This document shows positions 38,966-40,387 of a stretch of 64,000 nucleotides of DNA, in pieces; position 1 is the stretch's first letter; every line of letters starts with the position of its first letter. Origin of the DNA: Deltaproteobacteria bacterium (GTDB lineage Bacteria > Desulfobacterota > Syntrophobacteria > Syntrophobacterales > Syntrophobacteraceae); assembly GCA_012517315.1 (NCBI GenBank), contig JAAYVE010000034.1, positions 1 to 64,000 on the forward strand, in the 5' to 3' direction. The notes beneath the pieces were generated by a model. It made no database searches. It had not been told where the DNA came from and worked only from the letters and a program-made list of their open reading frames with translations. The position numbers were made by a program, and so were the translations under genes.

Positions 38966-39266
38966 GGCGACCGTCTCGTGCAATCGTCCTGCAATACCTT
39001 TATAGCCTCGAACCAGGGAGTGAGTACGACTCCCTTGTCCCGATTCGGCTTTTGAAACACTTTATCGCCGGGGATCGCTCCAGCATCACTCAGCGAGGCG
39101 ATGGCGGATTTGGAAGAATCATGGCGTGATTGTGGCTGAAAATGAAGCATTTGGCTGGATTATGGCGTGATTTTCTTGTGCCGGGGGGGACTGCAAATGG
39201 AGAAGGAACTGTGTGAGTCCGCCCCTTTTCGCCCTCTTAGCGTTTTCTCCTGGTTATTGAAGGGGA
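38966..39266. other. intergenic region upstream of the sigma-54 promoter
   Basis: No gene. It holds a 7-bp hairpin AGGGAGT-N7-ACTCCCT (39015-39035), possibly ending the DUF255 transcript although without a T-run, and the paired dyad sites at 39117-39172. Confidence 0.5.
39117..39172. promoter_or_regulatory. paired dyad sites, candidate enhancer-binding sites
   Basis: AATCA-TGGCG-TGATT (39117-39131) is a perfect dyad and its core ATGGCGTGATT recurs at 39162-39172, 41 nt apart (about four helical turns). The copies end 136 and 95 nt before the sigma-54 -24 element, the usual distance for activator sites. Confidence 0.5.
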
Positions 39267-39282
39267 TGGCACGCTCGTTGCT
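39267..39282 (+). promoter_or_regulatory. sigma-54 (RpoN) promoter
   Basis: TGGCACG-CTCG-TTGCT matches the RpoN consensus TGGCACG-N4-TTGCW in every conserved base, with the GG and GC at the correct spacing. Transcription should start near 39293. Confidence 0.8.
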
Positions 39283-39292
39283 TCTCTTAGTG

Positions 39293-39363
39293 TGTACAAG
39301 AGAAACCAACTCTTTCCTCCTCAAAAGCTAACCGGTCCTAGCCCCTCCGGTTAGCTTTTTTTT
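39293..39363 (+). ncRNA. candidate sigma-54-dependent small RNA
   Basis: About 71 nt between the predicted RpoN start and the end of a strong terminator. The parts are a small 5' hairpin (AAGAG 39298-39302, CTCTT 39310-39314), an unpaired UCCUCCUC (39315-39322) complementary to Shine-Dalgarno sequences, then the terminator hairpin with a CCCCUCC-containing loop and eight U. There is no ORF. It could be a trans-acting Hfq-type RNA that blocks ribosome binding sites. It could also be a leader-terminator (attenuator) of the flavoprotein gene at 39521. Structure and promoter are seen; function is inference. Confidence 0.6.
39323..39363 (+). terminator. strong Rho-independent terminator
   Basis: AAAAGCTAACCGG (39323-39335) pairs with CCGGTTAGCTTTT (39347-39359) and eight T follow the GC stem (39356-39363). 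One of the best terminators in the window. Confidence 0.92.
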
Positions 39364-39520: not shown

Positions 39521-40387
39521 ATGGACACAGAGAAAACATTGCTGGGACTGATCGCTTCCCCCAGGAAATTCGGGAATTCGGAGCTATTCGTCAAGGAAGT
39601 TTACCGGGGGTTTCCAAAAGGGTGGCAACTGCGACTCATCAGGCTTCCGGAACTTGACGTCAGGCCGTGCAGGGCCTGCTACCAGTGTTTGTTCGGCGAG
39701 ATGAAATGCCCCCAGGACGACGACATGGAGATCCTGCTCGGTGAACTTGCAAATTGTGATGCATACCTCGTTGCTGCGCCGACCTATTTTCTAGGGGCGA
39801 ATTCCACTCTGAAGAGGGTTCTGGATCGAGGATTGAGTTTTTATGCAGTGATGGAGAGACTCTGGGGAAAGCCCGCTGCAGGCGTAGGGATTGCCGGAAT
39901 TGAAGGTTTGGAGGGACAGACGAAACTCGACATCGATCGTTTCATCAAACTCACCTTTGGAGACCTGAGGGAGACGGCCATTCTTTATGCTGCCTTGCCG
40001 GGCGAGATCTTTCTTGCGGAGGGAGGAAGGGTGGCCGCCGCCCGCTTGGCTGAAGCCATCCTGAGGGACGCAACGAACGCTCCATGGAGGGACGGTTTAT
40101 GTCCCATATGCGGGGGGGACACATTTCGCTTCCTCCCCGATGACCGGGTTCGGTGCATGCTCTGCAGTAACACGGGCACCTTTTCCTGCAGCGATGGCAC
40201 AGTCAGGATGGATATCCGTGAAGGAGGGCACCCCCTGTTCAGAGACCTCGAGAGTGCCCGCAGACACTTGGAGTGGCTCAGGTCGATGAAAGACCGGTTT
40301 ATCCAATCGAGGAAAGAACTCAAAAAAGTCACGGTTCAGTACACCCGGACCGGGACTTGGGTGCGTTCGAAGAAAGAATTGGACTGA
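39521..40387 (+). CDS. iron-sulfur flavoprotein with C-terminal zinc ribbon
   Basis: 288 residues, start at 39521 with GGAG upstream. A flavodoxin/NADPH-FMN-reductase fold (LLGLIASPRKFGNSELFVKEV, YLVAAPTYFLGANSTLKRVLDR) carries the compact cluster motif C-x2-C-x2-C-x6-C (CRACYQC ... KC), typical of Isf proteins with FMN and a [4Fe-4S] cluster that handle electrons or reduce O2 and peroxide in anaerobes. Uncommon is the added C-terminal zinc ribbon CPICG ... CMLC. It starts 158 nt after the strong terminator. Confidence 0.85.
   Translation: MDTEKTLLGLIASPRKFGNSELFVKEVYRGFPKGWQLRLIRLPELDVRPCRACYQCLFGEMKCPQDDDMEILLGELANCDAYLVAAPTYFLGANSTLKRVLDRGLSFYAVMERLWGKPAAGVGIAGIEGLEGQTKLDIDRFIKLTFGDLRETAILYAALPGEIFLAEGGRVAAARLAEAILRDATNAPWRDGLCPICGGDTFRFLPDDRVRCMLCSNTGTFSCSDGTVRMDIREGGHPLFRDLESARRHLEWLRSMKDRFIQSRKELKKVTVQYTRTGTWVRSKKELD

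Follow-up and report, generated by a model that had tools for sequence, protein, structure and literature searches.

The window, the whole stretch of 64,000 nucleotides analysed here, carries a short block with a sigma-54 promoter and an intrinsic terminator upstream of an FMN reductase gene, and this raises the question of whether the block encodes a regulatory RNA of its own and what such an RNA would act on. The earlier note on this DNA had proposed a consensus RpoN promoter with a start near 39293 and a 13-bp terminator with eight T ending at 39363, and both were found as described. The pattern TGGCAC-N5-TTGCW occurs once in the 64 kb, where shuffled sequences lead one to expect 0.03 sites, and the start was placed from the −24/−12 spacing. 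The 71-nt RNA is predicted to fold with −21.5 kcal/mol (z −5.2), and none of 200 shuffles was equally stable. In the predicted fold a 5-bp 5′ hairpin is followed by unpaired UCCUCCUC and by the 13-bp terminator with an 11-nt C-rich loop. The layout suggested earlier held for the fold, the exposed segment and the C-rich loop, and less so for the 5′ hairpin, the right arm of which (CUCUU) lies within the invariant seed. The coordinates are collected in Table 1. The window also holds a 5S rRNA gene at positions 1–106, its 5′ end cut by the window edge.

Table 1. Features of the small RNA locus and of related loci in the same and other genomes (G, genome; C, contig; L, locus)
Feature	Position	Strand	Remarks
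Enhancer (UAS) repeat TGGCGTGATT, copy 1	39122..39131	+	element upstream of 66/68 class I/II copies
Two tandem enhancer repeats, TGGCTGGATT A TGGCGTGATT	39152..39172	+	11-nt period
Sigma-54 (−24/−12) promoter TGGCAC-GCTCG-TTGCT, TGGCACGCTCGTTGCT	39267..39282	+	perfect match, conserved in the family
Small RNA, class I copy, ~71 nt	39293..39363	+	start inferred from promoter spacing
5′ hairpin (AAGAG / CTCTT)	39298..39314	+	moderately supported
Invariant seed AACUCUUUCCUCCUC	39308..39322	+	complementary to SD regions of porin and lipoprotein mRNAs
Intrinsic terminator, left arm AAAAGCUAACC, loop UCCUAGCCCCU	39323..39363	+	T8 to 39363
FMN_red (NADPH-dependent FMN reductase) gene, neighbour	39521..40387	+	partly syntenic; RNA not dependent on the gene
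Histidine kinase and response regulator (REC, sigma-54 AAA+, winged helix), window genome	G000:C56, about 104.3–107.3 kb		
Class III copy of the window genome	G000:C13:37171-37240		
Class III siblings	L149, L154, L155, L160, L179-L182, L184 (also L146, L158)		

The proposal had been tied beforehand to conservation in relatives. A DNA search of 60 relatives gave matches in 49, and in most other genera of the family an RNA core of 65–70 nt was 92–98% identical while the flanks were lost. The family (f1) is Syntrophobacteraceae, since its member MAG_BA129 (JARLHO010000041.1) carries the RNA. A covariance search of related genomes, as suggested earlier, was performed with a model built from 20 copies and found the RNA in 37 of the 39 genomes of the order, with 1–5 copies per genome, and in three genomes of two families outside the class. 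The order as a whole has thus retained promoter, transcript and terminator, whereas the neighbouring DNA diverges.

The copies fall into three classes, of which class I includes the window copy, and the seed AACUCUUUCCUCCUC is common to all of them, so that a 15-nt pyrimidine tract is near-invariant throughout. In class II the terminator differs and its loop is CUGCCCC. The terminator loop of class III is CCUCCUCC, and the class III promoter, which does not belong to the sigma-54 type, reads roughly TTGAC-N7-TTATNAT and is accompanied by neither a sigma-54 box nor an enhancer. A first reading of this promoter as an ordinary TTGACA-17-TATAAT was not borne out by a scan. In an alignment of 53 class I/II rows, both sides had changed in 9 of the 11 terminator pairs, and the covariation score was reached by none of 500 shuffles. 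Paired cells made up 97% in the terminator and 86% in the 5′ hairpin, which indicates that the latter is less constrained. No conserved open reading frame was found, as had been claimed: only 7 of the 68 class I/II copies have a start codon with a frame running through the seed, and these few are scattered over all three frames.

The covarying terminator also bears on whether the block merely serves the FMN reductase gene as a sigma-54-driven leader or attenuator. In favour of this, that gene has the same orientation as the block and is syntenic in many Syntrophobacteraceae. However, no element covaries more than the terminator, the nearest downstream ORF lies on the opposite strand at four loci (L012, L016, L018, L044), the neighbours differ in families f2 and f3, and paralogues adjoin unrelated genes, which together make a leader most improbable. 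A DUF255 protein also neighbours the RNA locus, being too widespread to be informative.

An Rfam 15 scan of the window gave only the 5S rRNA at the gathering score, and no Rfam match was obtained at 13 loci with paralogues or distant copies. The RNA reached the gathering score of neither MicA nor RybB nor any other Rfam 15 family; Qrr (RF00378), the best meaningful lead, scored 18.4 against a cut-off of 50 bits. This agrees with the earlier statement that no described RNA with exactly this layout was known. To judge from the sequences, this is a real RNA family, absent from Rfam.

The sigma-54 promoter (TGGCAY-N5-TTGCW) is exact in 54 of the 68 class I/II copies and has one mismatch in another 13, so that 67/68 have at most one, and it is conserved even though the flanking DNA of the copies has diverged. 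None of 1693 control windows drawn from the same loci came within one mismatch, the best having two. Upstream of the promoter lie tandem 11-nt repeats (TGGCGNGATTN) forming a putative enhancer, with the family consensus TGKCSNGATT, also written ATGGCGTGATT. At least two repeats, spaced 11 nt (commonest) or about 20–21 nt, precede 63/68 copies versus 9/1693 controls; as both consensus sequences were read from the same data, the controls test specificity and are not an independent discovery. Allowing for up to two mismatches, seven whole genomes have a double repeat at 13 places. Eight of these belong to RNA genes, where a sigma-54 promoter follows about 100 bp further on, and no sigma-54 promoter was found at the remaining five.

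Searching for the sigma-54 promoter combined with the seed, we found further copies in families f39 and f54, and a reversed control pattern gave no match. At all f39 and f54 loci that include the upstream flank, the RNA lies 230–270 bp downstream of a gene for an NtrC-type response regulator, of the REC/AAA type with a Fis HTH_8 domain at its C-terminal end, and in the loci read the enhancer is a GTACAAAATTTTGTAC-like palindrome. The best match of this regulator in five genomes of the order, 59–63% identical in the receiver and AAA+ domain only, is encoded directly after a histidine kinase gene. In the order's protein the HTH_8 domain is absent, and the C-terminus was modelled as a winged helix (pLDDT above 90 in the domain), for which there is a precedent among sigma-54 activators in DVU0151 (PMC4641369). 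From the best hits, rather than from a tree, we infer that the Fis-type and winged-helix regulators are orthologues. At L188 (G319), two tandem RNA copies, each with its own sigma-54 promoter, lie between a Fis-type regulator gene and era.

The winged-helix regulator is single-copy in nearly all genomes of the order, the window genome included, where its gene adjoins that of a histidine kinase, and it is also present in the sister families f4–f6. In f5 its gene is directly followed by four to five tandem TCCGGATTATG repeats, TGGCAAGAAATTTGC, an RNA with a variant seed and a terminator, the sigma-54 promoter sitting between the enhancer repeats and the RNA. The seed of the RNA has drifted to AACTCTTTTTCTCCTTT at the f5 loci L274, L275 and L280. 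In an f6 genome (G043), the winged-helix domain (C383:602-817, minus strand) lies just upstream of two RNA copies on the same strand. Such adjacency was found in the sister families and not in the window genome itself. Among draft assemblies of the order, G032 and G036 have the regulator and gave no RNA match, and the draft assembly G017 has the RNA and gave no winged-helix match. A conserved −24/−12 promoter at the right distance, an enhancer that the regulator putatively binds, and a regulator gene adjacent to the RNA in f5, f6, f39 and f54 are the marks of a sigma-54-dependent small RNA; adjacency and enhancer together argue strongly for a link between regulator and RNA.

As for the targets, the earlier note had expected pairing with the AGGAGG sites of many genes. 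Pairing with Shine-Dalgarno sequences found support, but this view was too broad. Short partial matches in the DNA search of relatives proved antisense to gene start regions, and a pattern-based target search showed that AACUCUUUCCUCCUC together with the terminator left arm is complementary over 20–24 nt to two separate ribosome-binding sites, one of an outer-membrane porin gene (at least 12 genomes) and one of an Lpp-like alanine-zipper lipoprotein gene (at least six). The pairing segment is therefore longer than the anti-Shine-Dalgarno stretch first pointed out, and AAAAGCUAACC would serve a second role in target pairing. The porin matched NF033939 (E 2e-32) and the lipoprotein NF040598 (E 1e-6 for the copy of G006, weaker for that of the window genome), both under the curated cut-offs. 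In G011 the target site is a perfect 24-nt complement of the class I sequence of the window. In the window genome, the porin start is TTAGCTTTTTAGGAGGAAAGAG-ATG, matching at 21/22 positions, and the lipoprotein start is CAGCTTTTAAGGAGGAAAGAGTC-ATG; the predicted duplexes have −37.6 and −35.9 kcal/mol, respectively, and the best among 83 ORF starts in the window has −29.3 kcal/mol. Since 7 and 18 of 31938 arbitrary window segments equalled or exceeded the porin and lipoprotein duplexes in stability, energy alone would not single these two genes out.

They are singled out by three observations: the block is kept, it recurs in an unrelated gene, and cognate pairs beat swapped ones. Upstream of the complementary block the porin leader is only 32% identical, whereas the block itself is kept, and it is common to the start codons of two unrelated gene families. 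When RNAs and porin sites were swapped among genomes, only 19 of 20000 permutations were as good as the cognate pairs. Compensatory changes were seen in G009, where the RNA has AAAGAC and the mRNA GTTTTT, and in G015, where the linker is one base longer in both; in the g7 genomes the linker is mismatched to the porin mRNA. Porin-like and lipoprotein genes of f54 genomes are likewise preceded by start sites that complement the local RNA. Conserved predicted pairing with porin and lipoprotein ribosome-binding sites is characteristic of small RNAs that repress outer-membrane proteins, and its conservation and compensation argue strongly for these two genes as targets. They also speak against the pyrimidine tract binding or titrating a protein instead of mRNAs. 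The near-invariance of its 15 nt in all three classes would fit such a role, but complements that co-vary with the RNA exactly at the start codons of two unrelated gene families would not, and we regard it as very unlikely.

Strong Shine-Dalgarno sequences share GGAGGAAA by nature, and the seed contains CCUCCUC, so the RNA might simply damp the translation of many, perhaps most, messages that have a strong ribosome-binding site, and have no dedicated envelope targets. GGAGGAAAGA start sites also before HU and small membrane-protein genes in several genomes point the same way, and on this side we also count that perfect 15-nt seed complements outside RNA genes are very rare, almost all matches being RNA genes. 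However, in the porin leaders, as in the lipoprotein leaders of G000 and G001, the complementary stretch extends several nucleotides past the Shine-Dalgarno sequence into TTAGCTTTT, which is unneeded for ribosome binding. The stretch has persisted where the remaining leader diverged, and it compensates changes in the RNA. We thus consider a generally acting anti-Shine-Dalgarno RNA unlikely, though less so than protein titration. A small ORF, Qrr membership, a leader or attenuator and generic anti-Shine-Dalgarno action were all considered and ranked lower.

A few other start sites were noticed. HU gene starts of five genomes (L395, L398, L407, L285, L287) carry GGAGGAAAGA and may be targets or merely have a strong ribosome-binding site. 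At L345, in G036, where no RNA copy was detected, the start of an LpxC-like gene carries TTTGAGGAGGAAAGAG, the same kind of complement. Seven porin leaders (L356, L357, L358, L361, L367, L368, L317) have a second GGAAAGAG about 25–30 nt upstream of the Shine-Dalgarno sequence; it is complementary to CUCUUUCC and possibly forms a second pairing site.

Comparative evidence thus supports the sigma-54-driven small RNA with an anti-Shine-Dalgarno segment that the earlier note had proposed. In the reading that we prefer, with a probability of roughly 0.77, sibling RNAs controlled by a two-component system and sigma-54 repress abundant outer-membrane proteins; transcription, activation by this regulator, repression and the inducing signal are predictions. 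The locus would encode a trans-acting small RNA under the control of a histidine kinase and a response regulator whose genes lie elsewhere in the genome; the response regulator would bind the TGGCGNGATTN repeats and drive sigma-54 RNA polymerase. Like its siblings, the RNA would pair through AACUCUUUCCUCCUC, and class I also through the AAAAGCUAACC that follows. In the porin and Lpp-like lipoprotein mRNAs the duplex would span the Shine-Dalgarno sequence as far as the start codon and block ribosome binding, so that the RNA most likely represses translation. Porin and Lpp usually rank with the most abundant proteins of the envelope, so envelope or osmotic stress is a likely inducing input, and the RNA would be the RNA arm of an envelope response.

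Among known systems, MicA, RybB and MicL, as well as FoxI and FoxJ, are likewise sibling RNAs with common targets. The predicted repression of a major porin by pairing at the mRNA start recalls MicA, RybB and MicL, an Lpp-type lipoprotein as predicted target recalls MicL, and the C-rich seed is similar to that of FoxI and FoxJ of Fusobacterium (PMC11005410). MicA, RybB and MicL are sigma-E-dependent RNAs of enterobacteria, and such sigma-E RNAs safeguard the envelope of E. coli; in contrast, sigma-54 and a two-component activator are predicted here, and the present family differs from all five in having no Rfam match and in belonging to a different phylum with a different porin family. Qrr of Vibrio, controlled by LuxO, shares the response-regulator activator, sigma-54 and several paralogous RNAs, but differs in seed, targets and the DNA-binding domain of the regulator. 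Pxr of Myxococcus, reported only from myxobacteria (PMC5568312, PMC5684412), is sigma-54-dependent and lies directly downstream of the NtrC-type regulator gene nla19/pxrR (PMC5568312), a position like that in the f5, f39 and f54 loci; it differs in its three stem-loops and developmental role, being compared by description and not by sequence. In Desulfovibrio vulgaris, a sigma-54 regulator lies beside the Dv_sRNA2 gene (PMC3333781), and the DVU1419 regulon is listed as envelope stress plus ncRNA (PMC4641369); the regulator–RNA adjacency of Dv_sRNA2 and the sigma-54 ncRNAs of the DVU0679 and DVU1419 regulons resembles ours, again by description only.

The analysis predicts a whole chain from sensor kinase through regulator, enhancer and RNA to targets in sulfate-reducing and syntrophic bacteria, in which little is known of RNA regulation. 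As a predicted sigma-54 counterpart of the sigma-E envelope RNAs, the family would represent an independent convergence on the silencing of porins and Lpp. It would also be a natural experiment, in which the DNA-binding domain of the regulator and the enhancer changed together and the downstream RNA stayed. On balance we favour, with some reservation, the wider view that a dedicated two-component/sigma-54 module, and not sigma-E, controls the RNA arm of outer-membrane homeostasis in parts of Desulfobacterota. In this module the same REC/AAA+ type of regulator would remain tied to the RNA, its Fis or winged-helix DNA-binding domain would be exchanged together with the enhancer, and the sibling RNAs would diversify and spread around the genome.
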